Source: Georgenia sp. EYE_87 (GTDB lineage Bacteria; Actinomycetota; Actinomycetes; Actinomycetales; Actinomycetaceae). Taken from it: DNA of 64,000 nucleotides. Under the pieces are notes generated by a model. That model saw nothing but the letters and a program-made list of their open reading frames with translations. It had not been told where the DNA came from and did no database searches. The stretch is from the NCBI RefSeq assembly GCF_023148685.1, contig NZ_JAHXNL010000004.1, positions 72,594 to 136,593 of the forward strand, in the 5' to 3' direction. The position numbers were made by a program, and so were the translations under genes. This document shows, piece by piece, positions 5,228 through 30,248 of this stretch; the first letter of the stretch is position 1, and the number at the start of each line of letters is the position of its first letter.

Positions 5228-5271
5228 ACTACACCGCACTGCAGGAACCCAGATCCAATCAAGGAGGCACC

Positions 5272-14960: not shown

Positions 14961-15400
14961 GTCGACGAGTCTTCGTCGGCGGAGCCGAGCGCGTTTGGCG
15001 CAGTGTGGACAGCGGTCGACCCCTTCTGGCCCTGTGGATGCGAGTGCACCAAGGGCGAATCCTCTTCCGGCTCCTTATGGGACGAAGTCGAATGCGGCGT
15101 GCGCTGCTCCCGCTCCGCGTCCCTACGGATACGCCGTACTTCTCGCGCTTCGATTCCGAGGAGTACAGCCACACGGCTCGGCGTCTCGCCGAGGTTGAGG
15201 AGGTCCTGAACCGTTGCGTCCATCCGCTCATCGAGGGCCTGAAGCTTGGTGGCGAGTTCGTCCCGCTCGTCCCCAGCGGTGTAGTACTTCGCAGCAGCCT
15301 CCTCAATTAGGCGATCCCGCTTGTCACGCTCGGCGTCGAGCCTCAGCCGTGCACTCCTCGCACGTTCCCTTGCGTCGATCTGACGGTTCGTTCGAGCCAC
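14957..15400 (-). CDS. Coiled-coil protein, possible relaxosome accessory
   Basis: 147-residue protein starting with a strongly charged coiled coil (RQIDARERARSARLRLDAE and following, to about residue 50), then a short helix-turn-helix-like segment (LGETPSRVAVLLGIEAREVRRIRRDAE, about residues 70-97), then a disordered Ser/Glu/His tail. The frame is open from a GTG at 15412, but only the GTG at 15400 has a good Shine-Dalgarno (GAGG, six bases upstream), so I prefer it. It is first in a three-gene operon divergent from the MobF relaxase, with the inverted repeats at 15432-15473 between them. A small HTH/coiled-coil protein in this position is often an oriT-binding accessory protein; here that is an inference from layout. 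Confidence 0.6.
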   Translation of the reverse strand: MARTNRQIDARERARSARLRLDAERDKRDRLIEEAAAKYYTAGDERDELATKLQALDERMDATVQDLLNLGETPSRVAVLLGIEAREVRRIRRDAEREQRTPHSTSSHKEPEEDSPLVHSHPQGQKGSTAVHTAPNALGSADEDSST

Positions 15401-15431
15401 CTTTTGCCTCACTATGCGTAGTTGATGTCGT

Positions 15432-15473
15432 CATGTTGTGTCATACTCAACATGCAGAGGTCTACACACCTCT
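15432..15473. promoter_or_regulatory. Candidate oriT / operator between relaxase and accessory operon
   Basis: Two perfect inverted repeats lie side by side in an AT-richer patch: CATGTTG/CAACATG (15432-15438 and 15448-15454, 9-base loop) and AGAGGT/ACCTCT (15456-15461 and 15468-15473, 6-base loop), the latter extendable by GC pairs. MobF relaxases commonly nick beside such repeats close to their own gene, here 47 bases upstream of the relaxase start. The same spacer must also hold both divergent promoters, so the repeats could instead be repressor sites. No nick-site consensus was matched. Confidence 0.5.
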
Positions 15474-15519
15474 TGCACTACTAGTGGCGTCGGGCGCGCA
15501 CAGGGGGGCAGCGCTGGTG

Positions 15520-18500
15520 ATGACGGTGCACGTGCTCCACGCCGGGGACGGCTACACGTACCTCACGCGTCAGGTTGCCTCGGGCGACACGTCCCGCCGG
15601 GCGGGTGAGTCGTTGGCGGACTACTACGCCCACGAGGGCAACCCTCCGGGACGGTGGGTCGGCGCCGGGCTCGCCGGGCTCGGGACTTCCGGGCAGGTCA
15701 GCGAGGAGCAGATGAAGGCCCTGTTCGGTGAGGGGTTGCACCCTGATGCGGACCGGCTGATTCGGGAGGCGATGGCCGGCGGGGCGAGCGTGGAGGAGGC
15801 GGTCAAGGCGGCCCGCCTGGGGCGCCGGTTCCCACGGTTCGAGCCGGTCGACGACGAGGAGTGGACGAGCTCGATCCGGGCCGCCTACGCGAAGTTCAAG
15901 GCCGAGCACGGGCGCGCACCGGAGGCCGGTGTCGAGCGAGACCTGATCCGGTGGGACGTCGCCGGGGCGATCCTGACGGGTCGGTTCGGGCGGGAGCCGG
16001 CGGACGCGGAGCGGTCGCACTACCTTGCGCGGCTCGGTCGCCAGCAGCGTCAACCGGTGGCCGGTTACGACCTGGTTTTCACTCCGGCCAAGTCCGTCTC
16101 GACGCTGTGGGCGCTGGGGGATGCGGACGTTCGCCGTGAGGTCGCGGCCGCCCACGAGGCTGCGTGGCGGGGTGCGTTCGGGTGGGTCGAGCAGGAGGCC
16201 GGCTTGACCCGGGTGGGCACGGGCGGGGCCGCCCAGATCGACACCCGCGGCCTGGTCGCCGCGGCGTTCGACCATGCCGACTCGCGCACCGGGGACCCGA
16301 ACCTGCACACCCATGTCGCGGTGTCCAACAAGGTCCAGGGCAGCGACGGCAAGTGGCGGGCCCTGGACGCCCGTGTGCTGCACGCCCTGGGGGTGGCGGC
16401 GTCGGAGCGGTACAACACGCTCATCGAGGAGGAGCTGCGCAGCCGGCTCGGGGTGCGGTTCGTCGACGAGGACCGAGGCCGCGGCAAGCAGCCGGTGAGA
16501 GAGATCGAGGGCATCGATGCCCGGATGCGGGCGGCGTTCTCCTCGCGCCGGGCCGCGATCGAGGAGGTCTACGCCGAGCTCACCGAGCGGTACCGGGCCG
16601 ACCACGGCCATGAGCCGCCGAAGGCGGTCCAGCTGCGCCTGGCCCAGCAGGCCACCCTGGAGACGCGGGAGGGCAAAGAGGACGGCGTGACGCTGTCCGA
16701 GCGGCGGGAGCAGTGGCGCCGCCAGGCCGCCCAGGTGCTCGGCGAGGACCGCCAGGTGGGGGAGATGATCGCCGCCGCGGTGCACCGCGACAGCGGCGAG
16801 GACGGGACGGGTGTCGACGTTGACGAGCTCGCCCGTCGGGTCGTCGAAGAGGTCCAGGCCAAGCGTGCGACGTGGAAGCCGTGGCACCTGATGGCCGAGG
16901 CGATGCGGCAGGCTCGCCAGCACGCCACCGGGGACCTGGCCGGCGTCGCCGAGCAGGTCACCGCCCGCGCGGAGGCGCTGTCGCTGCGGCTCGACCCGCC
17001 CGAGCTGAACCCGGTTCCCGAGGTGCTCCAGCGCGCCGACGGGGAGTCGGTCTACACCGTGCACGGGCAGCGCGTCCTGACCTCCCAGGCCGTGCTGGAC
17101 GCCGAGCACAATCTCGTCCAGGGCGCGCTGCGCACCGGCGGGCTGGTCGTCGGCGAGCAGCAGTTCAGCGCCGCCCTACGAACGGTGGAGAAGGAGAGCG
17201 GGCGCACGCTGAACGACGGTCAGCGAGAGTTGGCGCGCGCGTTCGCCACCTCCGGGCGCGAGCTCGTGGCCGGGATCGGCCCGGCCGGGACCGGGAAGAC
17301 CACCGCCATGACGGTGTTTGCCCGCGCGGTGGAGAACGCCGGTGGCAGGGTGCTCGCGCTGGCACCGTCGGCGGCCGCGGCGAGCGTGCTGGGCGAGGAG
17401 CTCGGGGTGACCGCGGAGACCCTGCACAAGCTCATCCACGCCCACCGGACCGGCGTGGTGACCGAGGCGCTGCGCGTCGACGCCTCGACGGTGCTGCTCG
17501 TCGACGAGGCCGGCATGGCGGGCACGCCGCTGCTCGACCAGGCCCTGACCCTGGCGCGGGAGCACGGGGCGAGCGTGCGGCTGCTCGGTGATCCCCAGCA
17601 GCTCGCCGCCGTGGAGGCCGGTGGGGCGCTGCGCCTGATCGACGAACGCGTCGGGGCCGTGCGCCTCGAGCAGGTCCACCGGTTCGCTGACCCCGAAGAG
17701 GCCGCCGCATCGCTGCGGCTGCGCACGGGAGAGACTGGTGCTGGTGACTTCTACCTCGGGCGTGGACGGGTGCGTGGCGGGACGCGCGAAGCCATGCTCG
17801 AGGAGGTCTACGCCGCCTGGTCGGCCGACACCGAGACCGGTCAGGACGCGGTCATGATCGCCGGGTCGAACACCGACGTGACTTCGCTGGCCGGGCAGGC
17901 CCGCCGCGACCTGGTCGCGGCCGGCCGGGTCGAGACCGACGGCGTCGTGCTCCACGACGGCAACCAGGCTGGCCGCGGCGACCGGATCGTCACCCGGCTC
18001 AACGACCGCACCCTGGCCACCGCGAACGGCAAGGACTTCGTCAAGAACGGCGACGTCTGGGAGGTGCTCGATCGCGCCAACGACGGCCGGCTCCGCGTCC
18101 GGCACACCGGCCACCGCGGCACGCTGAACCTGCCCGCCGGTTACGTCGCCGAGAACGTCGAGCTCGCCTACGCCGCCACCGTGCATCGGGTGCAGGGCAT
18201 GACCGTCGACTCCTCCCACGCCCTGCTCGACGCTAGCACCGACCGCCAGGGCCTCTACACCGCCCTGACCCGCGGCCGCCAGAACAACCGGGCCTATCTG
18301 GTCACCGACACATTTCTCGGCGCCGACGGGCACGACGAGGCCGGCCCGGCATGGTCTCCCGCCCAGGTCCTAGCCGGGATCATCGCCCGGGACGGCGCCG
18401 CACTCTCGGCAACAACCGCACAGGAGACCGCCTACCGCGAGGCCCACAGCCTCGCCCGCCTGGTCCCCGAGGTCGAAGACGCCCTCGACCGCTTCGGGCA

Positions 18501-19149
18501 CTACCCACCCGGCCTCGAGCCATGGCGCCCCGCCCCGGACGCCCCGGAGTGGATCACCGTGCCCGACCTCAGCAGCCACCCGCAGGTGCGGGAGTGGGCC
18601 GCCCGGCACGTCGAACTCATCGAGCAGCGCGTGGATCACCTCGCCGACCTGGCCCTCGCCGGCCGTACCGAATGGAGCCGGCGTCTCGGTCTACCGAGCG
18701 ACGTGACGGAAGGAGCGGTCGTCGGGGCTCGGCTGGTGGCCGCCTACCGCGACCGGTATGGCATCACCGGTAGCGATCCGCTCGGTACCGAGCCCGAGCA
18801 CGGCCGCCAGCTGGAGGACTACTGGCGCGCAGTGGCCGGACTGGATCAGATGCACAAAGGCCTGGACCGAAACGATGAGCGTGCACAATCGCTGGCCGGA
18901 CAGGTCACCGGCGAGAGGCAAGACCAGCGACAGCGCACTTCCTCCGCGGCTGAACTGCTCCGCCGCCGCCCCAACCGCCCCCTGGACCTCAACGACCACG
19001 GAGACGAGCACGGCGCGACGGACAGACTCGACCGCGCGCGCGAGCAGCTGCGCAAGCGGCGCGAGACGCGCGGGAAAGCGGACCTGCCAGACAACAACGA
19101 TGGCACTAAGCACAGGGGGCCACGACGCGGCGGACCGTTATACCTCTAG
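15520..19149 (+). CDS. MobF-family conjugative relaxase-helicase (TraA/TrwC-like)
   Basis: 1209-residue bifunctional transfer protein that nicks oriT, stays covalently bound to the 5' end and unwinds the transferred strand. The N-terminal TrwC-type relaxase domain has candidate nicking tyrosines in the first 45 residues (GYTYLTRQV, LADYYAHEG) and the metal-binding histidine triad His252, His263, His265 (HADSRT...NLHTH). The superfamily I helicase part has Walker A GPAGTGKT at 587-594, Walker B VLLVDEAGMAG near 665 and the C-terminal HRVQGMTVDSSH motif near 889. A C-terminal helical, charged tail of about 300 residues follows. ATG 15520 is chosen because the protein then begins MTVHVLHAGDGY as in the family; the 100 codons before it read through the presumed oriT. 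It is divergent from the accessory operon. Confidence 0.95.
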   Translation: MTVHVLHAGDGYTYLTRQVASGDTSRRAGESLADYYAHEGNPPGRWVGAGLAGLGTSGQVSEEQMKALFGEGLHPDADRLIREAMAGGASVEEAVKAARLGRRFPRFEPVDDEEWTSSIRAAYAKFKAEHGRAPEAGVERDLIRWDVAGAILTGRFGREPADAERSHYLARLGRQQRQPVAGYDLVFTPAKSVSTLWALGDADVRREVAAAHEAAWRGAFGWVEQEAGLTRVGTGGAAQIDTRGLVAAAFDHADSRTGDPNLHTHVAVSNKVQGSDGKWRALDARVLHALGVAASERYNTLIEEELRSRLGVRFVDEDRGRGKQPVREIEGIDARMRAAFSSRRAAIEEVYAELTERYRADHGHEPPKAVQLRLAQQATLETREGKEDGVTLSERREQWRRQAAQVLGEDRQVGEMIAAAVHRDSGEDGTGVDVDELARRVVEEVQAKRATWKPWHLMAEAMRQARQHATGDLAGVAEQVTARAEALSLRLDPPELNPVPEVLQRADGESVYTVHGQRVLTSQAVLDAEHNLVQGALRTGGLVVGEQQFSAALRTVEKESGRTLNDGQRELARAFATSGRELVAGIGPAGTGKTTAMTVFARAVENAGGRVLALAPSAAAASVLGEELGVTAETLHKLIHAHRTGVVTEALRVDASTVLLVDEAGMAGTPLLDQALTLAREHGASVRLLGDPQQLAAVEAGGALRLIDERVGAVRLEQVHRFADPEEAAASLRLRTGETGAGDFYLGRGRVRGGTREAMLEEVYAAWSADTETGQDAVMIAGSNTDVTSLAGQARRDLVAAGRVETDGVVLHDGNQAGRGDRIVTRLNDRTLATANGKDFVKNGDVWEVLDRANDGRLRVRHTGHRGTLNLPAGYVAENVELAYAATVHRVQGMTVDSSHALLDASTDRQGLYTALTRGRQNNRAYLVTDTFLGADGHDEAGPAWSPAQVLAGIIARDGAALSATTAQETAYREAHSLARLVPEVEDALDRFGHYPPGLEPWRPAPDAPEWITVPDLSSHPQVREWAARHVELIEQRVDHLADLALAGRTEWSRRLGLPSDVTEGAVVGARLVAAYRDRYGITGSDPLGTEPEHGRQLEDYWRAVAGLDQMHKGLDRNDERAQSLAGQVTGERQDQRQRTSSAAELLRRRPNRPLDLNDHGDEHGATDRLDRAREQLRKRRETRGKADLPDNNDGTKHRGPRRGGPLYL

Positions 19150-19291: not shown

Positions 19292-19978
19292 CTAGAGAGT
19301 GATACGAGCCCTAGAGACCTCCTGCGCAAACCACCGTGTGATCGAGGTGGGGTGCGTGATGGCCGTCCCTACGCACACAGCAAAGGCTCCGCGCTCGAGT
19401 GCAATCCGCGCATCATCCGGCGTCTTTATCCGGCCCTCGACGACGAGAGGGAGTTGAGCGAATGCCCTAATCTCGTCAACTAGCGCGAGATCTGGCCCCT
19501 GAGTCTTCACTCGATCACCTGTGTAGCCGGAGAGAGTCGTACTCAGGATGTCTACCCGCGCGGACTCTGCGGCTCGCGCATCCTCGGCTGATCCGCAGTC
19601 CGCCATTATGAGAGCGTCCGAGTGCTCTCTGATGCGCGCGACCGTTTCAGCGAGGGTGAGACCATCCGGGCGAGCTCGTCTCGTTCCATCGATCGCGACG
19701 ATGTCTACACCAGTGGATGTTACCGCTCGGGCATGCTCGACAGTGGGCGTGATGTAAACGCCCGAATCCCCGTCCTTCCACAGTCCGATCACAGGTACGG
19801 GGACCGTTCCGACGATGGCCCGGAGGTCCTCCACACCCTCCACCCGGACGGCGCAGGCACCGCCGTTGATGACGGATCGTGCCATCTGCGCCATCGTGCG
19901 GGGATCCCGCAGTGGCTCCCCCGGGTAGGCCTGGCACGAGACGATGAGCCCGTTGCGAAGCCGTTCGAGGACGGACAT
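19292..19978 (-). CDS. nanE: N-acetylmannosamine-6-phosphate 2-epimerase
   Basis: 228-residue TIM-barrel epimerase that converts ManNAc-6-phosphate to GlcNAc-6-phosphate. The sequence is typical NanE: start LIVSCQAYPGEPL, the loop VIGLWKDGDSGVYITPT with the catalytic-region lysine (about Lys67), VDIVAIDGTRRARPDG, and VVEGRIKTPDDARIALERGA near the C-terminus. The start is either GTG 19981 or ATG 19978; both overlap the stop of the oxidoreductase gene, so translation is coupled. It is the last gene of the amino-sugar operon. NanE is the most diagnostic member: it ties the cluster to ManNAc-6-P, hence to sialic acid or ManNAc, with the ROK protein as the probable kinase. Confidence 0.93.
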   Translation of the reverse strand: MSVLERLRNGLIVSCQAYPGEPLRDPRTMAQMARSVINGGACAVRVEGVEDLRAIVGTVPVPVIGLWKDGDSGVYITPTVEHARAVTSTGVDIVAIDGTRRARPDGLTLAETVARIREHSDALIMADCGSAEDARAAESARVDILSTTLSGYTGDRVKTQGPDLALVDEIRAFAQLPLVVEGRIKTPDDARIALERGAFAVCVGTAITHPTSITRWFAQEVSRARITL

Positions 19979-21027
19979 CACGCGGTGACCGGCGAGCCGC
20001 TCGCCACTGCCGCAACCTGCACCGTGATTCCCTTTGTGACGGCCTCCTCCAGTGCGGCGACCACTTTGACGGCCTTTGCCGCTTCGCGCACCGTCACCGG
20101 GACCGCAGCTCCAGTCAGGCAGGACCGAACGAAGGTCTGCAGTTCCACGGCGAGTGCGCCCTGCGGGGAGCCATACAGTGGGGCACCGGCCGGCATCGGG
20201 AGCGCGAACTGGTCACCGGCGACATGGATGCCGCTGTCGAATGAGTCGATCGACAATGCTGCCTGTGAGCCGACCAGCCGGAATCGGGCGTCGAGGTCGG
20301 TCGGGTAGTCCTCGGGCAGGTTCCAAGACGACTCGACCTGGACTACGCCGCCGCCCGACAATCGAAGGTTGCCGAGTACCGCCATACTCTGTCGTCCGGT
20401 TCGTTCCAGCGCCGCTGAGGCGAACCCCTGGACCTCGATCACGTCTTCGCCGGTGATCCACTGCAGAGCGTCGATGTCGTGGATGCCCAGGAAGAACGCG
20501 ACGCTGACTCGGCCGCCCGCTCGTTCGCCGACGGAGACCTTGTTGTCGCGGCGTAGGTATCCGTGCTGGACCTCACCGAGACCGCCTGCCTTGACCACTT
20601 GGCGGGCGTGGTGGTAGCGCGGCTCAAACCGAAGCGTCTGACCGGGCATCACGACGACGTCTGCATTCTCCGCGAGGAGCGTGAGCGCGTCTGCCTCTGC
20701 CGGGTCGGTGGTGATCGGCTTCTCCAGGAGGAGGTGAAGCCCTGACTCGATGATGCGCTTGGAGTCGGCGAAGTGGAGGTGATCCGGGGTGCAGAGACTG
20801 ATGGCGTCGACTGCATTCGCAGCCAGGAGTTCGTCGAGCGTGGCGTAGGCGGTCGCGCCGGTCTGTTCGGCAACGTCAGCGCGGACTTCGTCCCGCGGAT
20901 CGACGACGGCGGTCAGTACGACGTCGGGCGTCCCCCGGTAGATCCCAACGTGCTCAAGACCGATCGCGCCGAGCCCGACGACGCCGATTCGCAGCGGCGA
21001 CTTCGCCGCCTGGTGCTGGTTTGTCAT
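19978..21027 (-). CDS. Gfo/Idh/MocA-family NAD(P)-dependent oxidoreductase
   Basis: 349-residue sugar-type oxidoreductase. An N-terminal Rossmann fold (RIGVVGLGAIGLEHVGIYRG) is followed by the family's EKP signature (LLLEKPITTDPAEADAL, about residues 108-124) and the C-terminal alpha/beta substrate domain with GIHDIDALQWITGED, where the His is the usual catalytic-site residue. The ATG at 21027 has GGAGGAG upstream and overlaps the permease stop (ATGA). In a NanE/ROK cluster the closest known parallel is the Gfo/Idh/MocA enzyme (NanOx, YjhC) that converts 2,7-anhydro-sialic acid to sialic acid; assignment here is inference from context. Oxidation at C3 of another amino sugar is the main alternative. 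Confidence 0.88.
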   Translation of the reverse strand: MTNQHQAAKSPLRIGVVGLGAIGLEHVGIYRGTPDVVLTAVVDPRDEVRADVAEQTGATAYATLDELLAANAVDAISLCTPDHLHFADSKRIIESGLHLLLEKPITTDPAEADALTLLAENADVVVMPGQTLRFEPRYHHARQVVKAGGLGEVQHGYLRRDNKVSVGERAGGRVSVAFFLGIHDIDALQWITGEDVIEVQGFASAALERTGRQSMAVLGNLRLSGGGVVQVESSWNLPEDYPTDLDARFRLVGSQAALSIDSFDSGIHVAGDQFALPMPAGAPLYGSPQGALAVELQTFVRSCLTGAAVPVTVREAAKAVKVVAALEEAVTKGITVQVAAVASGSPVTA

Positions 21028-21848
21028 TTCACTCCTCCATAGGAAAGGCCGGTGGCCATTTGCTTTCGTGCCAAGATCGCGAATACGACGATCGGCAGCG
21101 TCCCGATTACGCCGGCGGCGGTCAGGGTGGACCAGTTGGTGCCGACGAAGCTCAGGAAGCCTGAGACCCTCACGGGCACCGTCTGTGTGGCGCCGCCGGT
21201 GATGACGAGCGCGTATAGGTATTCGTTCCACGACTGGATCAAGGACAGGATCAGCGTCGCGAAGATCGCGCCGGTCATGTTCGGCGCCACGCATTGAAGC
21301 ATCGTGCGCCACTCGCCGGCGCCGTCGATCAGCGCTGCCTCACGAACCTCTCGCGGGAAGTTCACGAGGAACGAACGGAGGATCAGGACGGCGAGCAGGA
21401 CGGCATAGTAGGAATGGATAAGGGTGATCCCGATGGTGGTGCGCGATAGGCCGAGGTCATCAAAGGTGCGGTAGAGCGGCGTGAGCCCCAACACCGGCGG
21501 GACCGTTGTGAGCAGCAGGATCACCAGAGCCACCCGGCGCGAGCCGTTGCTCCTTTCCGGCCAAACCTGCGTGGTCAAGTAGGCCAGGGGCAGGCCGCCG
21601 ATGACCCCGACGAGGCTTGACACCACCGCGACTATCGTGCTGGTCAGCATTGCCTGCGACATGCCGCCCTCGGTCCAGGCCTGTGCGTAGTTGGACCACT
21701 GCGGCGTGAAAATCCACACCGGCTCGGCGCTGAAAGCCTCGACGTCTGACTTCAGTGAAGTGCTAACCAACCATGCCACCGGCGCCAAGCACCAAACGAC
21801 GAATATATAAACGAGTACGGTCCTGACCTCGCCGATTAGGTGCTTCAC
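21024..21848 (-). CDS. ABC sugar transporter permease, MalG-type (CUT1)
   Basis: 274-residue inner-membrane permease with about six membrane segments. The EAA loop that docks the ATPase is REAALIDGAGEWRTMLQCVAP near residue 180. The N-terminal segment and the periplasmic loop before the second helix (VWIFTPQWSNYAQAWTEGGM) are typical of the MalG half of carbohydrate uptake (CUT1) systems. Its ATG overlaps the stop of the MalF-type permease, and its TGA overlaps the oxidoreductase start, so the operon is fully coupled. No ATPase gene lies in the cluster; actinobacterial CUT1 systems often share one MsiK-like ATPase encoded elsewhere. Confidence 0.92.
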   Translation of the reverse strand: MKHLIGEVRTVLVYIFVVWCLAPVAWLVSTSLKSDVEAFSAEPVWIFTPQWSNYAQAWTEGGMSQAMLTSTIVAVVSSLVGVIGGLPLAYLTTQVWPERSNGSRRVALVILLLTTVPPVLGLTPLYRTFDDLGLSRTTIGITLIHSYYAVLLAVLILRSFLVNFPREVREAALIDGAGEWRTMLQCVAPNMTGAIFATLILSLIQSWNEYLYALVITGGATQTVPVRVSGFLSFVGTNWSTLTAAGVIGTLPIVVFAILARKQMATGLSYGGVK

Positions 21849-22801
21849 TTCTTATCTCCGTCCTGCTTGCCAAACCCCATAATCCGACGCGCCAGCGGGA
21901 AGACGAGCACCACGAGCGCGACCGATGTGAGGAGTGCAAGCGCGGTCGAGTAGCCAATGTCGAACACCTCGAACCCGACTCGGTAGACGTAGTTGCTGAT
22001 CGCCAGTGAGGACGTGCCCGGCCCGCCTTCTGTCATGGTCTGGACAAGCGCAAAAGTCTTGACGGCGTCGATAATTCGTAGCAAGAGCACGATCGACATG
22101 ACCGGCGCAAGCATTGGCAAAGTGACGTGGCGCAGCATCGTCCACCCGTGTGCGCCGTCAAGTTGTCCGGCCTCGAAGGGCGCGGGGTCGAGCGACTCCA
22201 GGCCTGCAAGGACGATAATGACGACGTACGGAGTGTTCTGCCAGACCTCGACAAGGATGACGGCGAACAGCGCCGTGCTCGGGTTCGAAAGGAAGGCGTG
22301 GTCTGACCCCAGTCCCAACTGCCCGAGGAAGTAGTTGATCATGCCCGACGTCGGATCCATCAGTAACCGCCAGGTGAGCCCGGCCACTACGGGTGTCAGG
22401 ACCATTGGCACCAGGATTAGAGCTCTGACGATGCCCTTCCCGAAGAACTTCCGGTGCATGAGGAGGGCGATCGCGACACCGAGCACCATCTCGACACCGA
22501 CACCAACGGCAACGTACGTCAGGGTAACGACGATTGATTTTAGGAGCGTCGGGTCGGAGAGGGCCCGGGTGAAGTTTTCCAGGCCGACGAATGTTTCGCC
22601 GCTCCCAGGGATCAAGAGGTTCTCGCCGTGAAGCGCGAGCCAGATGCCCCTAATCAGAATGACAAGTAGGAACGGGATGATCACGATCCCGGCCGGGATC
22701 ATCAGCGACAGCGGGGATCCTGTCGCTGACTTGCGGCGTCGCCGTTCCGCTGGGCTGGCGGTGGGCTCGCGTACTCGTTGGTTAAGGGTTAGGCCTGACA
22801 T
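21845..22801 (-). CDS. ABC sugar transporter permease, MalF-type (CUT1)
   Basis: 318-residue permease, partner of the MalG-type subunit. A basic N-terminal tail of about 28 residues precedes the first membrane segment (IPAGIVIIPFLLVILIRGIW). The EAA loop is EAGQLDGAHGWTMLRHVTLP, near residue 215. Six membrane segments are apparent. The ATG at 22801 lies 13 bases after the binding-protein stop with only a weak Shine-Dalgarno (AGAA), so it may rely on read-on from the lipoprotein gene. Imports a mono- or oligosaccharide delivered by the adjacent lipoprotein; by context an amino sugar or sialic-acid derivative. Confidence 0.92.
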   Translation of the reverse strand: MSGLTLNQRVREPTASPAERRRRKSATGSPLSLMIPAGIVIIPFLLVILIRGIWLALHGENLLIPGSGETFVGLENFTRALSDPTLLKSIVVTLTYVAVGVGVEMVLGVAIALLMHRKFFGKGIVRALILVPMVLTPVVAGLTWRLLMDPTSGMINYFLGQLGLGSDHAFLSNPSTALFAVILVEVWQNTPYVVIIVLAGLESLDPAPFEAGQLDGAHGWTMLRHVTLPMLAPVMSIVLLLRIIDAVKTFALVQTMTEGGPGTSSLAISNYVYRVGFEVFDIGYSTALALLTSVALVVLVFPLARRIMGFGKQDGDKK

Positions 22802-22814
22802 GAATCAGTTCTTT

Positions 22815-24122
22815 TCAGCCGAGCTGCCGGTTGATGTTCTCCGCCGCCATGTTCAGGGCGTCGGAGGCGCTGGTCTGGCCCGACAGAATGTTGGAGAGCG
22901 CCTGCCCTGTCTCGACGATGATCACGTTCGCGTTCTGACCGCTCGGAAGGTAGTCGACGTTCCCCGTCTCGAGCTGGGACAGCACGGCTTCCTGGAATGC
23001 GCCGTACTTCTCCTGGTACTCCGAGCCCGTCAGCACGGATTCGAGGGTGACGCCGACGGCTTCGGTAGTTGCAACGGCGTTCTCCTGCACGTCGAGACTC
23101 GTCGCCCAGGACATGAACTTGTACGTCTCCTCAGGGTTTTCGCTGAAGGAGCTCAGGTATAGCGCGTGCACGTTCAGCGAGTTGTTCGTGTTCTCCCCGG
23201 ACTCGACGCCGTCCGCGTACGGAATGGCCGCGTACCCGACCTTGCCGGCCACGGTCGACGATTCGGGGTCCTCATTGAAAGGACCGTTGGCCGTCGCATC
23301 GATGGTCATTGCTGCCCTGCCCTGCGTGAAGGCAATGCGATTCTGCTCCCAGTCGAAGTTTGCGGCGCCCGAGGCGCCGTACTCTCTCAGGAGCGTCGAC
23401 CAGTACTCCGCGGCCTCCACTGCCTCGGGGCTGTTGATCGCCGATTTGCCGTCGGCGTCGAAGAAGTCACCGCCGAAGGACCGCAGGAGCCCTGCCCACG
23501 GGTACACGCTTTGAATCCCTGGAGCGCCGCGCATGGTGATCCCGGCGACCTCGCCGCCGGAGCCCTCACTGATGGTGCGGGCGGCTTCCATCAACTCGTC
23601 GGTCGTCTGCGGCGGGCCGGCGATCCCGTGCTCCTCGAACAGGTCGGTTCGGTACATCAGGAACGTGCTCTCGCCGTAGACAGGCAGGCCGTAAACGGCG
23701 CCGTTGTCGGTACTCATCGGTGCGATGTATGGGTCGTAGAACGCGTCGAGGTCTCCGAACTCGGTGTCACTCTCCGCCAACGGCGCTAGGTCCTGGATGT
23801 ATCCGGACTCGAAGTAGCCACTTCCGTAGACGTTGTCGGTGAAGACGGCGTCGTAGTAGTCGGATTCCTGCGAGAACTCCTGGAGAATCTTGGCTGCCTG
23901 GTCGCTGTAGGGGACAGTCTCGATCGTTACATCGATCCCCGTGGACTCCTCAAACTCTGGCAGCATCGTCTTGATGTTGTCCGTATAGGAGATGTCCTCC
24001 ATGAGGACCGTGATCTTGCCTGAGTCACCTCCCGCCGAGTCATCACTGGTGCCGCACGCGGCGAGGCCGGTGACAAGTGCTGCCGACGTGCCGATAACGA
24101 GGAACTTCCTTGTTTGCATCAT
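22815..24122 (-). CDS. ABC sugar-binding lipoprotein
   Basis: 435-residue extracellular substrate-binding protein of the CUT1 type. The signal peptide ends in a lipobox (LVTGLAACG; Cys at about residue 22). The mature part has the usual two-lobe pattern, for example TMLPEFEESTGIDVTIETVPY and YGLPVYGESTFLMYRTDLFEE, the latter a common cluster-B binding-protein segment. Two adjacent in-frame ATGs (24122, 24119) follow a GGGAG stretch; a longer frame reaching 24311 runs into the divergent ROK gene and is rejected. It is the first gene of the leftward operon and should be the most highly expressed. Neutral or amino sugar ligand expected; the exact ligand is unknown. Confidence 0.93.
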   Translation of the reverse strand: MMQTRKFLVIGTSAALVTGLAACGTSDDSAGGDSGKITVLMEDISYTDNIKTMLPEFEESTGIDVTIETVPYSDQAAKILQEFSQESDYYDAVFTDNVYGSGYFESGYIQDLAPLAESDTEFGDLDAFYDPYIAPMSTDNGAVYGLPVYGESTFLMYRTDLFEEHGIAGPPQTTDELMEAARTISEGSGGEVAGITMRGAPGIQSVYPWAGLLRSFGGDFFDADGKSAINSPEAVEAAEYWSTLLREYGASGAANFDWEQNRIAFTQGRAAMTIDATANGPFNEDPESSTVAGKVGYAAIPYADGVESGENTNNSLNVHALYLSSFSENPEETYKFMSWATSLDVQENAVATTEAVGVTLESVLTGSEYQEKYGAFQEAVLSQLETGNVDYLPSGQNANVIIVETGQALSNILSGQTSASDALNMAAENINRQLG

Positions 24123-24267
24123 TCGAACTCCCGGGGACGGAGGGGCGCCTTCATTGGAGCACCCTATGGATCTTGTGAGTACCCTAGGGTGATGGCGGTC
24201 ACTGTACGGCGCATGTGACGTACAACGCAAACACCCAGTGAACGAGCTGTAGGGGGAAGAGGGAGCG
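24123..24267. promoter_or_regulatory. Divergent promoter/operator region of the amino-sugar cluster
   Basis: This spacer drives the transport/catabolic operon leftward and the ROK-GntR operon rightward. Three sites stand out: a perfect 10-base palindrome ACCCTAGGGT at 24181-24190; a related ACCCTATGG at 24161-24169, exactly 20 bases away; and an imperfect 20-base palindrome at 24204-24223 (GTACG...CATG...CGTAC, two mismatched pairs). The GntR/HutC regulator encoded at 25221 is the natural candidate to bind here. Confidence 0.5.
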
Positions 24268-25224
24268 ATGACGGCAGACATGCTGATAGGCGTCGACATC
24301 GGTGGAACCAAGACTGCTGCGGCGTGGGTCTCGCAGGAGGGGCGCGTGGGTCCGGTTGTTAGTACGCCTACGCCCGCAGCCGACGGGCCGAATGCCGTTT
24401 TGGAGACTGTGGTCAGTCTCGTCCAGTCCCTCCTGGGCGATCCTTCCGACCGTGAGGAGGGCCGTAAACGTCACGCTGTCGCGCTCGGAGTCGGGACGGC
24501 CGGACTGGTCGACGTGACCACCGGTGTCGTCGTGGGCGCAAACGACACGTTCCCCGGGTGGGTAGGGACGCCGGTAGGCGAGGTGCTCGCAAATCGGCTG
24601 CGGCTCCCGGTCCATGTCGAGAATGACGTGGACGCACATGCGGCAGGTGAGGCATGGGTCGGTGCTGCAGCAGGAGCCTCTTCTGCGCTTGTCGTCGCAG
24701 TCGGAACTGGTGTGGGGTGCTCCTTGGTGCTGGGCGGGAAACCGCTCCGCGGAGCGCACTCTGGCGCGGGCGAAATTGGCCACATGCCGTGCGCCCTCGC
24801 GGCGGGCCTCATGTGTCCGTGCGGACGACCGGGGCATCTGGAGGCGCTAGCCTCAGGGCCCGCCGTGCACCGCGAATACCTCAGAAGAGGCGGAAATCCG
24901 GAGTCTCAGGACGCCCCATCAGTCCTCGCTCAAATGAGGAACGGTGATGCCATCGCGTCGGGTGTCGTCAGAGACGCGGCCGTCGCGCTCGGTCAAGCCG
25001 TGGCAGGCCTAATCACTGCACTTGACCCGCAGATCGTCGTGGTCGGGGGTGGATTTGCGCTGGCCGATGAGACGTGGTGGGGCTGGCTCGAAGAAGAACT
25101 CCGGAGACAGCTCATTGCCCCGCTTGCCACCGTGCCGATTCGTCGGTCGGAACTGGGGGGCGCCGCACCTATCGTAGGTGCAGCAGCGGGAGCGCGCCGG
25201 CTGGTCAATGGGGGCCAAGGATGA
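24268..25224 (+). CDS. ROK-family sugar kinase, probable N-acetylmannosamine kinase
   Basis: 318-residue ROK kinase. The N-terminal phosphate loop is LIGVDIGGTKTAAAW. The zinc-site region reads GEIGHMPC...CPCGRPGHLEALASG: the usual ROK pattern is CxCG(x2)GC, and here His172, Cys183 and Cys185 are kept but the last cysteine is His190. A histidine can still bind zinc. The ATG at 24268 has GAGGGAGC just upstream. Next to nanE the likely reaction is ATP-dependent phosphorylation of ManNAc to ManNAc-6-P, but ROK kinases also act on glucose or GlcNAc and some are repressors; no DNA-binding domain is present. Its stop overlaps the GntR start (ATGA), so enzyme and regulator are co-expressed. Confidence 0.88.
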   Translation: MTADMLIGVDIGGTKTAAAWVSQEGRVGPVVSTPTPAADGPNAVLETVVSLVQSLLGDPSDREEGRKRHAVALGVGTAGLVDVTTGVVVGANDTFPGWVGTPVGEVLANRLRLPVHVENDVDAHAAGEAWVGAAAGASSALVVAVGTGVGCSLVLGGKPLRGAHSGAGEIGHMPCALAAGLMCPCGRPGHLEALASGPAVHREYLRRGGNPESQDAPSVLAQMRNGDAIASGVVRDAAVALGQAVAGLITALDPQIVVVGGGFALADETWWGWLEEELRRQLIAPLATVPIRRSELGGAAPIVGAAAGARRLVNGGQG

Positions 25225-25922
25225 GTCCTGTGAAGAAGTACGACGCCATTGTCAAAGACCTATTGGCGCTGATTGACACCAAGCGTCCCGGTGACCGCAT
25301 ACCGAGCGAGCAGGAACTCGCTGCTTCGTACAATGTGTCGGCGATGACCGTGCGGCGCGCGATGCAGGTTCTCAATGCGAGCGGACGGACCGTGGGTATA
25401 CCTGGCAAGGGCACGTTTGTACGTGCGCCTACGGTGTTGAAAGCACTTTCATCAACGTCGTTTAGTGAAACTATACGCGCCTCTGGGAAACGTCCGAGCA
25501 GCCGACTTCTGTTGGCGTCGATGGAGCCGGCGAACGAAGAGGAGCGGGAGATCCTTGAACTCGCACCAAATAGTTTGGTCATTCACGTGCATCGCGTACG
25601 CTACGGCGACGATGTGCCACTGTGTGTCGAGCGTGCGACTTTGGTGGCAGACCTCTTTCCGGGGCTTCTGGGCCGCGACCTTACGGACTCTCTGTACGCG
25701 ACCTTGCGCTCTAAGTACGGCACACTAATCTCGAGAACTCGTTTCGAGGTGACTGCAACTTTCGCCGATCGCGAGACATCAGCATTGCTCGAGATTGGGT
25801 CTCCAACTCCATGTCTTGAGACCCGCACCGTGAGCAGGAACCAAGACGGTGCGCTGGTCGAGTTCACGACGTCGCTCTACCGTGGGGATATGTATCGACT
25901 AGTCCTTGAGACGGGCTCGTAG
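25221..25922 (+). CDS. GntR/HutC-family transcriptional regulator
   Basis: 233-residue regulator. Residues about 1-70 form the GntR winged helix (RIPSEQELAASYNVSAMTVRR) and residues about 85-230 the UTRA ligand-binding domain typical of the HutC subfamily, which senses sugar phosphates or similar small molecules (NagR/YvoA senses GlcNAc-6-P or GlcN-6-P). The start at 25221 overlaps the ROK stop. Its likely operators lie in the 24123-24267 spacer, giving autoregulation of its own operon and control of the divergent transport operon. Base composition of this gene is clearly less GC-rich than the chromosome on the right, in keeping with acquisition by transfer. Confidence 0.93.
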   Translation: MSPVKKYDAIVKDLLALIDTKRPGDRIPSEQELAASYNVSAMTVRRAMQVLNASGRTVGIPGKGTFVRAPTVLKALSSTSFSETIRASGKRPSSRLLLASMEPANEEEREILELAPNSLVIHVHRVRYGDDVPLCVERATLVADLFPGLLGRDLTDSLYATLRSKYGTLISRTRFEVTATFADRETSALLEIGSPTPCLETRTVSRNQDGALVEFTTSLYRGDMYRLVLETGS

Positions 25923-25981: not shown

Positions 25982-27490
25982 TCAACGTTTGCTGATCGCC
26001 CGCTGGCCATAATCGTGATCCGCTAAATGCGCACGTTTGCTGTCAGTTCTGCCCGATGCCGGCGTGACGATTTGCGACCCTCCAAGGTGCGCGCCTCGGG
26101 CGGCCATGAAGGGCTCGGGGTCGGTGTGCTCGCCGTTAAGGTAGACACCGAAGTGCAGGTGGCAGTTGGTGGAGTTGCCGTCGTTGCCGACGAGAGCGAT
26201 GAGCTGGCCGGCGGTGACGTGCTGGCCGGGCCGGGCCAGCAGGCCGCTGGCGTACATGTGGTTGTAGCTGGTCTGGATGCCGTCGCCGTGGTCGAGGACG
26301 ATGACGTGCCCGGTCAGCCCGAGGCGGGGGTGCGGGCCGCCGGCGTAGGCGATCCGGCCGTCGGCGGCGGCGTAGATCGGTGTCCCGCATGCGGCGCCGA
26401 AGTCGGTGCCGGTGTGGAAGCTGGAGCCGAAGAGCAGGCGTGGCCCGTACGGGGAGGTGATGGGTCCGTCGACCGGCGCCATCCACTGCCCGGTGGGTCC
26501 GGCCGGTCCCGCTGTGGTGGCGGTGAGGCAGTCCAGTGGCCCGGTTCCGGCGTTCACCGAGGGAGTCGGGGTGACGTTGACGTGCGGGTGGTCGAGGTGG
26601 TTGGCGGTGTCCGAGCCGCGGTCGGCCATGGGCTGCCAGCCCTTGTCAGCCTCGGCGGCGCGCCAGATCGCTTGGCGCCAGATGATGTAGTCCACGCTGA
26701 GTCGGTCGGTGTGCTCGATGAGGTAGGAGACGATGGCGTCGCCGGTGGCGGTGTCGTCGTGGGTCATGAAGTCCACGGCGAGTCCGGCTGGGTGGCCGCC
26801 GGCGTCGACTGCGCTGTCCCGGTAGCCGCCGATCTCGGCGAGGTCGAACCGGGCGCCGACTTCCTCGGCGAGTGCTTGCGTGTGAGGTTTGACCGGGCCG
26901 AGCTCGTAGCGATGACCCGGAGTGGGGTCGTCGGTCGTGTCTGTCTGGCTGAGAGCCGTGACGATCTGGACGGCGGCGTCCCAGTAGTCGGCGTAGTGAA
27001 GCGGGTCGGCGTTGCGCTGGACCCGGTTGGCGGCCAGCGTGGGTTGGAGGTCGCGCCAGCCCTCGATCTTGTTCAGGGCGTCGAAGAACATGGCGGCCGA
27101 GCGGGCGGGGTCCATGCGGTCGGCGTAGGTGCCCCAGGCGCCGTTGTCGCGCTGCTGGAACAGGCCGCGGCTGTCGGGGCCGGCGGCGTCGCCGCGGTCG
27201 AGGATCCGCAGGCCGGACTCGCCCATGGCCGTCATGACGCCGATGGTCTGGCCCCAGGCGTCCATGCCGCGCTCGGCGCCCACGCGCATGATCGTGGCGG
27301 CGTTTGCCAGCTGCTCGCCGGAGTAGCCGGCGATCTCACCGTCGGGGACGTCGCCGACTGCGAGGGCAGTGCCCGGTGTGCACACGCCCGCGGGGGAGGG
27401 CCGGCTCAGGCCCGTGCCGACGAAGAGCACCAGCACGAACCCACCGAGCACGGCGAGCACCGTGCAGACCACGACGGCAGCCTTCTTCAC
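25982..27490 (-). CDS. Conjugation cell-wall hydrolase: transglycosylase-like, carboxypeptidase-like and M23 domains
   Basis: 502-residue exported protein with an N-terminal membrane anchor or signal (VVVCTVLAVLGGFVLVLFVGTGL). Three modules follow: residues about 60-180, a lytic-transglycosylase-like domain with candidate catalytic Glu in MTAMGESGL; about 190-325, a domain like those in ARB_07466-type proteins (IGGYRD...HPAGLAVDFM...LDHPHVNV); and about 345-470, an M23 LytM-type endopeptidase with HTGTDFGAACG and HLHFG. Together they would open peptidoglycan locally for the transfer channel, the VirB1 role. The start is GTG 27490, with GGAGGACG upstream. It is the last gene of the transfer operon, 33 bases after the lipoprotein. 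The C-tail is basic. Confidence 0.9.
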   Translation of the reverse strand: MKKAAVVVCTVLAVLGGFVLVLFVGTGLSRPSPAGVCTPGTALAVGDVPDGEIAGYSGEQLANAATIMRVGAERGMDAWGQTIGVMTAMGESGLRILDRGDAAGPDSRGLFQQRDNGAWGTYADRMDPARSAAMFFDALNKIEGWRDLQPTLAANRVQRNADPLHYADYWDAAVQIVTALSQTDTTDDPTPGHRYELGPVKPHTQALAEEVGARFDLAEIGGYRDSAVDAGGHPAGLAVDFMTHDDTATGDAIVSYLIEHTDRLSVDYIIWRQAIWRAAEADKGWQPMADRGSDTANHLDHPHVNVTPTPSVNAGTGPLDCLTATTAGPAGPTGQWMAPVDGPITSPYGPRLLFGSSFHTGTDFGAACGTPIYAAADGRIAYAGGPHPRLGLTGHVIVLDHGDGIQTSYNHMYASGLLARPGQHVTAGQLIALVGNDGNSTNCHLHFGVYLNGEHTDPEPFMAARGAHLGGSQIVTPASGRTDSKRAHLADHDYGQRAISKR

Positions 27491-28057: not shown

Positions 28058-28569
28058 CGCTCCTCCTCGTCGGCAGGGAGGGACTGTGCGACGAACTCGT
28101 GGAACGTCTCGTCGGCCTGCCAGGCTGGGGCGGTCCACTGGTGGTCCTGGTGGCCGTCGTCGCATCCGGAGAAGACCTTGAGGTGCCGGAGCCGGTCGAG
28201 GGTCGGCCACAGGGACCGCTCGTGCCAGTCGACCAGGGCGGGCGAGGGCTCGGCCGCGGACTCGTTGTAGGCGCCCTGGTGGGCGACCATCAGGGCGGTG
28301 AGCTGCTCGACGGCGACGGGGTGGCGGTACCAGCACGGCGGGAGGCGGTACTCCCGGCCGGGCAGGTTGGACAGGTATCGGGCGGTGAGCCAGGCGACGA
28401 ACTCGGCGAGCTCTTCCCACAGGACGATCTGGCGGTCCCGGTCCAGGCGGGTCCACAGCCACGGCCCGCCGGCGGGCCGCTCCGAGACGGCATCGATGAG
28501 GTCGGCCAGGGCGCCCTCGACGGTCTCGAGCCGCGCCTCGAGGTCGCCGAGGTCTTCGGTGGTCGTCAT
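28054..28569 (-). CDS. Small transfer-operon protein, function unknown
   Basis: 171-residue cytoplasmic protein. The first 30 residues form a leucine-rich heptad helix (LGDLEARLETVEGALADLID), followed by a Trp-rich domain (GGPWLWTRLDRDRQIVLWEEL, HQWTAPAWQADETFHEFVAQ). I do not recognise a family, but similar small proteins are encoded after the coupling protein in actinobacterial conjugation operons. Both ends overlap neighbours by four bases, its ATG with the VirD4-like stop and its TGA with the lipoprotein GTG, so expression is locked to the coupling protein. A role as a coupling-protein partner is plausible but unproven. Confidence 0.7.
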   Translation of the reverse strand: MTTTEDLGDLEARLETVEGALADLIDAVSERPAGGPWLWTRLDRDRQIVLWEELAEFVAWLTARYLSNLPGREYRLPPCWYRHPVAVEQLTALMVAHQGAYNESAAEPSPALVDWHERSLWPTLDRLRHLKVFSGCDDGHQDHQWTAPAWQADETFHEFVAQSLPADEEER

Positions 28570-30248
28570 GCGGTGATGCCCTCCCGTTCCAGCACCCAGG
28601 ACGTCGAGGTCTTGAGCGCCTCGGCGTCGGAGCGCTTCCACCACGGGGTGAGATCGACGATCCCGCCGGGCAGGTCGCGGTAGAGCAGCAGCGCCCGTCC
28701 CTCGGGGATGGTGCGCAGGTCGGAGACGCTGAGCACGCGTTCCTTCTCCGTCGAGACGTTGAACGAGGTCGTCTCGCCGCTGTCGGAGTAGTGGCGGGCG
28801 GAACGGGTGACCCGGCGGTCCCCGAGGAGCCGGGACACGGACTCCAGGAAGCCGTCGTTGCTCACCCCGCCCATGAGGAGCTTGACCGCGGCCGCCGCCC
28901 AGATGGTCTTGGCGCCCTCGTCGCCGTAGCGGCTGCGCAGCTGGGACTCGTCCTGGACGACCGGCCACACGCTCATCCCGCGGCCGCCGCCGTCGGCCAT
29001 GAGCTGGGGCAGGTCCGGGATCGGCGCGATGTTGGCGACCTCGTCGAGGACGAACGTGATCGGCGGGTCAAGGCGGCCGGCGGCGGTGCGCTGGGAGGCG
29101 AGTCGCCCGGCCCGGACCACCGCGGAGACCAGGGCGGTGATGAGCGGGGCGACGCCGCTGGACCCGCCCTCGGAGAGCAGGTAGAGGGTGTCGGAGGACC
29201 GGACGAACCGGTCCGGGTCGAACGCCTCGCCGTCGTCCTGCGGGGGGCAGACGAAGTCGACCACCCGGGGGTCGGCCAGCGGCTTGAGCACCAGCGAGAG
29301 GGACATGTCGGTGGAGGAGACGGTCTCCCGGGCCTCGCCCCGGGCGAACTTCTCCAGATCCTTCGCCCAGCCCGGGGCCGCGCCCTCGTGCTCGCGCAGG
29401 ATCGCGTAGGGGGTCTCGTTGTCGAAGTCCCGCGCCCAGGCGAGGACCTCCCGAATGGTGTGACCACCGAGGTCGGCGGCGTGCAGCAGGCAGCGCAGCA
29501 CCGTGTCGGCGGCCTCGTGGAAGAAGCCCGCGTTGCGGGAGCCGTCCGTCGGCCGGGCCGCGACCATCGCCTTCGCGCGGTCCATCGCGACCTTGACGTC
29601 TGAGCAGCCGGCGACGATGTTCCACCTGGCCGCCTCGGGCCACGCGGAGACGCCCTCGGGGTCGAAGACCCACACCCGGCCACGCTCGGCGCGCCGCTGG
29701 GCGGTCACGCGGAACAGGTCGACCTTCGTCGAGGTCGCCACCACCGCGCCCGGGGCGTCGACGACCTGCCCGACGGCGAGATAGGCCGTCTTGCCCTGCC
29801 GGGGCGGGGCGATCACGCAGCCGGTGTCCTCGGTGCGGGGGCGCACCGGCTGCCCGTGATAGCTGGCGATCGGCTCCAGGAGCGTCGCGGACGGTCCGCC
29901 GGTCGCGCGCTCCTTGAGCGCCTTGCCGGTGACCATGCCCTTCTCGGCCCGGCCGCGGTGGCGCGCCGCCACGGCCGCGACCAGGGCGATGGCGGTGAAA
30001 ATGACCAGGGCGAACCAGGTCGCCAGGACCACCGGCAGGCTCGCGGTGGTCACGTCCTCGCCGAGGTCGAGCGGCGACAGACGCAGCAGCGCGAGGAGGG
30101 TGCGGTCGACGTCGGCGAGCCCCAGGCCCGCCGAGGCCAACCACAGGGTCAGGTGCCAGTAGCCGAGCAGAAGCACGGCGAGCAGTGCGAGCTGGACGTT
30201 GGCCTTGGTGCTCGCCTTGATCGGCGGGCGGTTCTCTCTCGTCACCAT
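28566..30248 (-). CDS. VirD4/TraG-type conjugative coupling ATPase
   Basis: 560-residue membrane-anchored ATPase that brings the relaxase-DNA complex to the secretion channel. Two N-terminal membrane segments (about residues 20-40 and 70-95) precede the motor domain. Walker A is APPRQGKT at 147-154 and Walker B is ITFVLDEVANI near residue 395; the following QDESQLRSRYG is the usual TraG/VirD4 sensor region. The ATG at 30248 overlaps the VirB4 stop (TGATG). A much longer open frame upstream belongs to the antisense of other genes and was discarded. The C-terminus (VDLTPWWKRSDAEAL) is typical of actinobacterial members. Presence of this gene separates the element from FtsK/TraB-type actinobacterial elements. 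Confidence 0.93.
   Translation of the reverse strand: MVTRENRPPIKASTKANVQLALLAVLLLGYWHLTLWLASAGLGLADVDRTLLALLRLSPLDLGEDVTTASLPVVLATWFALVIFTAIALVAAVAARHRGRAEKGMVTGKALKERATGGPSATLLEPIASYHGQPVRPRTEDTGCVIAPPRQGKTAYLAVGQVVDAPGAVVATSTKVDLFRVTAQRRAERGRVWVFDPEGVSAWPEAARWNIVAGCSDVKVAMDRAKAMVAARPTDGSRNAGFFHEAADTVLRCLLHAADLGGHTIREVLAWARDFDNETPYAILREHEGAAPGWAKDLEKFARGEARETVSSTDMSLSLVLKPLADPRVVDFVCPPQDDGEAFDPDRFVRSSDTLYLLSEGGSSGVAPLITALVSAVVRAGRLASQRTAAGRLDPPITFVLDEVANIAPIPDLPQLMADGGGRGMSVWPVVQDESQLRSRYGDEGAKTIWAAAAVKLLMGGVSNDGFLESVSRLLGDRRVTRSARHYSDSGETTSFNVSTEKERVLSVSDLRTIPEGRALLLYRDLPGGIVDLTPWWKRSDAEALKTSTSWVLEREGITA

Follow-up and report, generated by a model that had tools for sequence, protein, structure and literature searches.

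NanE, the N-acetylmannosamine-6-phosphate (ManNAc-6-P) 2-epimerase, is commonly read as a marker of sialic acid use. A survey of actinobacteria took the lyase NanA within 10 open reading frames (ORFs) of the kinase NanK and of NanE as its criterion for a canonical nan cluster (PMC8754123). Two other described systems resemble the locus considered here. In the 2,7-anhydro-N-acetylneuraminic acid (2,7-anhydro-Neu5Ac) pathways, a Gfo/Idh/MocA-family enzyme, called NanOx in R. gnavus and NanY (YjhC) in E. coli, converts the anhydro sugar to sialic acid before NanA acts. In L. monocytogenes, the lmo2795-nanE operon places NanE beside a Gfo/Idh/MocA enzyme and a ROK protein, with no NanA (PMC10667646). 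The present analysis concerns a cluster at 19292-25922 of a 64,000-nucleotide stretch of Georgenia sp. EYE_87 (the window; C33:72594-136593 of the host's 4.35 Mb draft genome, C33 being contig NZ_JAHXNL010000004.1). This cluster combines NanE with a Gfo/Idh/MocA oxidoreductase (hereafter Gfo) and an importer. On balance, it appears to be a mobile copy of a catabolic module that is widespread, has no lyase and serves some mannosamine-type compound distinct from sialic acid.

The seven genes of the cluster form two divergent groups. Five on the minus strand overlap or almost touch: an extracellular sugar-binding lipoprotein (22815-24119; SBP_bac_1, PF01547, 2.6e-44), two CUT1 ATP-binding cassette (ABC) permeases of the MalF/UgpA type (21845-22801) and the MalG type (21024-21848), both matching PF00528 and both below every NCBIfam cut-off, the Gfo/Idh/MocA-family NAD(P) oxidoreductase (19978-21027; PF01408, 1.1e-25), which is the proposed entry enzyme, and NanE itself (19292-19981; PF04131, 2.3e-52; NCBIfam PRK01130, 275.5 bits against a cut-off of 189). 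A ROK sugar kinase (24268-25224; PF00480, 2e-54; below every NCBIfam cut-off) and a GntR/HutC-type (UTRA) regulator (25221-25922), which shares 4 bases with the end of the ROK gene, make up the plus-strand pair. Profile matches and reading frames place every one of these genes within 19292-25922, and the gene list of an earlier note, made from the letters of this DNA, was right throughout. The lipoprotein frame stays open to 24311, its likely start being MQTRKF as judged by reading, and a scan of 24000-24400 found neither a promoter nor a terminator. Gfo residue numbers are counted from 21042, which gives Lys108 of the EKP motif and His188. There is no ATPase subunit among the seven proteins, and no match to the DHDPS/NanA family in these seven or in the two flanking genes scanned.

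The same combination of genes recurs far beyond this host. Named genomes were searched with an alignment of six binding proteins, the best 80 of at least 539 relatives were taken, and stretches of up to 10 kb on each side of the binding protein were read, some of which stop at a contig end. Gene presence was scored by BLAST at 55 bits or more. In the 57 loci whose binding protein is 39-80% identical, Gfo is present in 53, NanE in 49, both together in 49 and a sugar kinase in 48, and the distance between NanE and Gfo is 300 bp or less in 34 of the 49. Four phyla are represented among these loci: Actinomycetota, Pseudomonadota, Bacillota and Chloroflexota. A NanA-like (DHDPS-family) gene was found in only two of the 57, L103 (24% identity, about 9 kb away) and L110. 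The module can be defined by an adjacent NanE and signature Gfo, a sugar kinase, a dedicated importer and no NanA, and the window cluster has all of these features. In the other 23 loci, where the binding protein is 29-34% identical, the Gfo, NanE and kinase queries match no gene by BLAST; one of them, L117, has a Gfo-superfamily gene whose best match is YjhC, and five hold distant DHDPS-family genes. At a threshold of 1e-90, binding-protein relatives were found in one of the 396 genomes of a phylum sample, the host itself. The CUT1 form of the module is not described in the literature searched, which was covered mostly at title and abstract level.

Among the actinobacterial loci, binding proteins share 58-80% identity with that of the window (58% in L064). 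In Microbacterium loci, NanE is 43-44% and Gfo 30-33% identical to the window's proteins, and the kinase is of another type. Roles that are kept while the proteins differ suggest that the reactions of NanE, Gfo and kinase are all required. The kinases of the 48 loci comprise 36 of the ROK family, six of the BadF type in Microbacterium (one scanned) and six fused to NanE. In L060:12940-14676 and the five other Microbacterium loci, ROK is replaced by a BadF/BadG-type kinase that weakly matches a model for GlcNAc kinase. An Eis-like GNAT acetyltransferase accompanies 25 of the 57 loci (for example L088:4981-6405; one scanned), all in Hyphomicrobiales genera or in records named 'Rhizobiales'; those hosts may meet the sugar without its N-acetyl group, as the free amine.

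The fusions, found in six rhizobial loci, put NanE and ROK into a single reading frame, as seen by BLAST in all six and by Pfam in the two that were scanned. The fused protein is about 515 residues long, as in L090:9326-10885 and L069:14893-16440. L069, L070 and L090 carry a further NanE in the same cluster as the fusion, and that of L090 looks degenerate. Of 50 genomes with the module, the host counted and most of them drafts, 36 have no NanE at E 1e-15 besides that of the module; three have two NanE genes, both in the module, and 11, including the host, have another elsewhere. The lyase model TIGR00683 finds no protein over its 382-bit cut-off in any of the 50, a test that is blind to the lyase type at issue, as the lyase of the host's own nan locus scores 83 bits. 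In L110, from Lachnospiraceae, a NanE, a DHDPS-family lyase (201 bits with TIGR00683), a ROK gene and what by eye looks like a symporter gene lie directly beside the module, which retains its own NanE and ROK. The host of the window likewise has both sets. Two sets standing side by side, each with a kinase and an epimerase of its own, speak for different substrates.

The second set of the host lies on the same contig. A second NanE is found at 16.7 kb, about 75 kb from the window NanE, within a canonical-looking nan locus at C33:8-20 kb that holds a GntR regulator, a dipeptide-type solute-binding protein (SBP), permeases, ATPases, a DHDPS-family lyase, a ROK kinase, NanE and NagB. Family matches cover only NanE and the lyase in this locus, which is interrupted by runs of N; the other names and the NanA call come from translations and neighbourhood. 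The lyase is a PF00701 match at C33:14642-15493, about 76 kb from the window cargo, and a sialidase-family match (PF13859, 44 bits against a cut-off of 27) lies at C33:4689-5600. Two further Gfo/Idh/MocA matches, one with an internal stop, lie at C33:5930-8028, directly upstream of the nan locus; the one at C33:7039-8028 is without the HHxH motif of NanOx.

The NanE proteins of the two loci are 66% identical and their ROK kinases 54%. The window cluster, in contrast, is without NanA, has a HutC/UTRA regulator rather than one of FadR type, uses another class of importer and carries an extra Gfo; the close grouping of all three nan genes by which the survey recognises a canonical cluster is absent from it. 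The earlier note's statement that there is no NanA lyase therefore holds for the cluster and fails for the genome, where the search for NanA that it proposed found the DHDPS-family candidate at C33:8-20 kb. Its suggestion of a lyase elsewhere is borne out in so far as the lyase exists; this lyase sits in a separate operon equipped with a kinase, NanE and a transporter, and a sialidase-family gene lies nearby. A truncated nan operon was also considered and is rejected, given the separate nan locus of the host and the different class of the cluster's transporter.

One of the two readings in the earlier note was that the cluster may handle 2,7-anhydro-Neu5Ac, in which case Gfo would be a NanOx producing Neu5Ac for cleavage by the host NanA. 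The NanA-like lyase and the sialidase-family gene on the same contig speak for this route, as does R. gnavus, which uses NanOx together with the ABC importer ST7 (PMC10955332). The window Gfo also shares with NanOx/NanY its superfamily, the EKP lysine and one histidine. It shares, however, only 25% identity with NanY/YjhC of E. coli over 237 residues (54.8 bits), which is under the 60% or more of published orthologues (PMC10955332) and also under the cut-off of the actinobacterial survey, more than 30% (PMC8754123). Two other host Gfo genes match YjhC better than the window Gfo does: C36:101476-102075, the host's best YjhC/NanY match (34% over 201 residues, 78.8 bits), which would satisfy the 30% criterion of the survey and is without HHxH, and C23:52018-52770 (29%, 67.3 bits). 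No gene with YjhC as its best match was found in the 57 module loci.

The catalytic residues separate the enzymes further. RgNanOx loses activity in the mutants K93A, K163A, H175A, H176A and H178A (PMC7535918). With His173/His174 of YjhC equated with His-175/His-176 of RgNanOx through the HHxH motif, none of 60 module Gfo rows (in which L057 and L065 are each counted twice) has a histidine in either column. All 60 instead have Leu, Gln or Val followed by Gly, Thr, Ala or Met, so that HHxH of NanOx/NanY stands against (L/Q/V)(G/T/A/M)(I/V)H in the module. Lys-93 (EKP) and His-178 are kept in all 60, and both are superfamily-wide traits. The active-site comparison with NanOx/YjhC proposed in the earlier note, run here by alignment columns, finds two essential histidines not kept, and a NanOx identity for the window Gfo is rejected on low identity together with these catalytic residues. 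With the module's NanE standing alone in 36 of 50 genomes as well, the 2,7-anhydro-Neu5Ac reading is left without support and is very improbable. Phylogeny alone is compatible with kinship between YjhC and the module enzymes, YjhC lying on a long branch in an unresolved fork.

The Listeria operon has been studied genetically. Schulz and co-workers deleted genes of the L. monocytogenes lmo2795-nanE operon (PMC10667646). Once NanE is lost, there is barely any growth on ManNAc, and deletion of the regulator or of the HAD hydrolase lowers growth on ManNAc, while deletion of the phosphotransferase system (PTS) component EIIBC, with or without EIIA, improves it; for the oxidoreductase deletion, the text states no growth defect (PMC10667646). 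Neu5Ac did not support growth of this species (PMC10667646). The NanE of a Listeria-type operon is therefore needed for ManNAc use, and by this account the operon is not one for sialic acid. The Listeria operon differs from the window cluster in having a PTS importer, a HAD hydrolase and an RpiR regulator, as described in PMC10667646, in place of the CUT1 ABC importer and HutC regulator. Among the plasmid records listed for the window's Gfo protein is one from Listeria, where NanE lies at the match or next to it. In the Listeria record, which was matched to lmo2795-nanE by gene order, NanE is 40%, Gfo 29% and ROK 30% identical to the proteins of the window. The record L041 (NZ_LR134400.1), named Listeria 'plasmid 3', is 594 kb long, carries mnmE, mnmG, rsmG, noc and parB-like genes and looks chromosomal.

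These deletions could be taken to mean that the module simply serves free ManNAc, which the transporter would take up for the kinase and NanE to process, Gfo having a side task. The need for NanE on ManNAc and the absence of any stated effect of the oxidoreductase deletion (PMC10667646) agree with this. Against it, Gfo is as constant in the module as NanE is (53 and 49 of 57 loci), and Listeria lacking PTS EIIBC grew better on ManNAc, so that the operon's own substrate need not be ManNAc. A free-ManNAc system is on these grounds improbable. That the Listeria oxidoreductase is apparently dispensable once ManNAc is supplied, as far as the published text states, fits a Gfo step lying before ManNAc.

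The preferred reading, a lyase-free module for another mannosamine-type compound, can be laid out as a pathway. The lipoprotein and permeases would import the compound, and Gfo would convert it to ManNAc with NAD, perhaps through a transient oxidation of the sugar like that of GH109 and GH188 enzymes. The ROK kinase would then phosphorylate ManNAc to ManNAc-6-P and NanE would turn this into GlcNAc-6-P, two steps to which kept residues, the NanE-kinase fusions and Listeria genetics all point. NagA and NagB finish the GlcNAc-6-P route, and those of the host would complete the pathway; a NagB-like gene is seen, by reading, in the host's nan cluster. The HutC-type regulator would control the divergent transcription units. 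The steps from ManNAc onward are quite likely, and the placing of Gfo at the entry step is probable. Of the two ideas in the earlier note, the second, some other sugar that yields ManNAc and enters by a new reaction, is the better one, supported by the conserved module, the fusions and the Listeria operon, while the entry reaction itself stays at the level of a proposal.

The active site of NanE bears on the later part of this pathway. In the NanE of S. aureus (SaNanE), the active-site residues are Gln11, Arg40, Lys63, Asp124, Glu180 and Arg208 (PMC8482478). The window NanE keeps five of the six by motif, as Gln17, Arg46, Lys69, Asp128 and Glu182, and has His210 at the position of Arg208; a histidine also stands there in the host's other NanE. 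The R208A mutant of SaNanE keeps 3.7% of kcat, with a higher KM (PMC8482478). As this mutant retains some activity, the change from arginine to histidine need not abolish that of the window enzyme.

The chemistry of Gfo allows more than one answer. Simple redox steps are the commonest in the Gfo/Idh/MocA family, and a plain dehydrogenase or epimerase could reshape a ManNAc stereoisomer, an alditol or an oxidised sugar into ManNAc with no glycosidic cut, for example by oxidising C3 or C4 and then reducing it from the other face. The AlphaFold2 (AF2) model of Gfo (mean predicted local distance difference test score (pLDDT) 90.1, from 23 sequences) is in keeping with such a role: its best Foldseek matches are 3cea, 3ezy, GenD2 and KanD2, and by profile as well as by fold the best solved relatives are inositol, aminoglycoside and unassigned dehydrogenases. 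The binding protein points weakly the other way. Most of the listed fold neighbours of its AF2 model (pLDDT 86.0) hold disaccharides or larger glycosides, which hints at a ligand of greater size, the nearest including 5iai, the maltose-binding MalE3 and a protein binding sulfoquinovose (SQ)-glycerol, yet the best of all, 4rya, is sorbitol-binding, and these neighbours do not settle the ligand. Plain redox chemistry of this kind is a rather unlikely account of the module. Rhizopine or MocA-type inosamine catabolism, suggested by the family name, was rejected, as NanE would be without a role in it.

The alternative chemistry within the preferred pathway is a glycosidase. GH188 enzymes oxidise C3 transiently, a like mechanism has been invoked for GH109, and in sulfoquinovose clusters that have no classical glycosidase a GH188 enzyme takes its place (PMC10755693). 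The same logic is proposed here for the module Gfo, which shares superfamily and fold with the GH188 sulfoquinovosidases and GH109 and is likewise the single gene of its kind in a cluster without a classical glycosidase. The GH188 structures 8qc5 and 8qc6 are among the Foldseek neighbours of the Gfo model (template-modelling (TM) score 0.77-0.78 by query length), the fold itself being superfamily-wide. That the entry enzyme acts as a glycosidase is possible but doubtful. The more specific version, an NAD-dependent glycosidase freeing ManNAc or mannosamine from a natural glycoside, is unlikely as it stands. The linkage unit of wall teichoic acid contains ManNAc-beta-1,4-GlcNAc, which is one candidate glycoside. 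The word 'mannosaminidase' is absent from the literature searched.

Several results weigh against this account. In the fold search, inositol and other dehydrogenases outscore GH188. The reference enzymes have a second catalytic histidine (His321 in ArSqgA, His404 in AmGH109A), and among the 30 positions conserved in Gfo there is no histidine matching GH188 His321, a comparison made without an alignment to GH188 or GH109. The residue four before the main histidine is Glu in GH188, by the published description, and usually Asp in the superfamily, whereas the residue at this distance before His188 is His in 34 of the 60 module rows, Phe in 17 and Tyr in nine. With no second histidine found and Phe, Tyr or His at this position, the glycosidase mechanism is a guess. 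Gfo is missing from four of the 57 loci and NanE from eight (L061, L068, L073, L084, L091, L096, L104 and L107). Finally, the module Gfos fall into several groups with good support, which spring from the same unresolved fork as non-module Gfos and YjhC; the tree, from which YcjQ (of another family), rows under 250 residues and exact duplicates were left out, leaves a common origin of the module Gfos unsupported.

L084, L096, L104 and L107 are also without Gfo. In these four, relatives of the binding protein and permeases adjoin a conserved regulator (in L104, a weak NagC/Mlc match), and a conserved neighbour resembles, by eye, an SGNH hydrolase.

The conserved positions set the module Gfos apart from others. 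In 56 rows, with the truncated L077 and the outlier L091 left out (both are included in the 60-row comparison), 30 positions are at least 95% conserved, and H31, K108, L137, R138, H160, R165, H188, D189, D191, W195, E237 and W240 are common to all 56. A 15-site signature drawn from these 30 positions is complete in 55 of 60 module rows, a score that is circular, the sites having been picked from module rows; only the contrast with other rows is informative. Among 32 other Gfo rows, L039 has 13 of the 15 sites, three rows have 11 and the remainder have nine or fewer. The L039/L054 enzyme, from a genome of another genus in the host's family (G075), is encoded near distant CUT1 permeases, and no NanE match was found in the 18 kb read there.

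Should this account hold, its consequences reach beyond a single host. A NanE-containing module without a lyase of its own, spread over four phyla, would mean that some genomes counted as sialic acid users by their NanE may use another compound, and that an unrecognised ManNAc-yielding nutrient may be widely used. If the glycosidase proposal proved true, Gfo would be a widespread gateway enzyme, perhaps the first described to release ManNAc from a glycoside.

The window cluster lies between a relaxase and transfer genes, as the earlier note had described. On the left is a MobF relaxase (TrwC plus helicase; 15214-19149, plus strand; NCBIfam MobF, 258.5 bits against a cut-off of 100). On the right, all on the minus strand, follow an M23 peptidase (25982-27490) and a TraG/VirD4 coupling protein (28566-31025), both by profile match, and a weak TrbL/VirB6-like protein (33348-34829; E 4.2e-4, under the Pfam cut-off). 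The guanine-plus-cytosine fraction of the cargo is 0.626, against 0.717 for the relaxase, 0.732 for 26-34 kb and 0.756 for 46-64 kb. The cluster can fairly be called cargo carried among conjugation genes, and a module copy in such a place suggests that the trait can move.

Relaxase relatives occur in 23 of 294 genomes of the order. Six stretches around them were read (4-18 kb, L155-L160), and these contain none of the cargo genes; beside the relaxase there is just a partial M23 match, in L157. A search of plasmid records for an empty site matched 24, none over more than 80% of the query; the ten that were listed, which have MobF or CHAP genes, match 1-4% of its length. Neither element ends nor an empty site were found in the plasmid records and the six relaxase-relative stretches. 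The plasmid search with the Gfo protein identified a Pantoea plasmid and a Rhizobium plasmid in which Gfo accompanies NanE and the same type of transporter, and an Arthrobacter plasmid in which Gfo lacks NanE and belongs to a different kind of cluster.

Two further observations concern the left part of the window. A TRAP transporter large subunit (DctM) and an NMT1_3 (TAXI-type) binding protein are encoded at 3155-6282, and a frame at 9023-10213 partly matches cytochrome P450 (profile positions 328-419 of 462).

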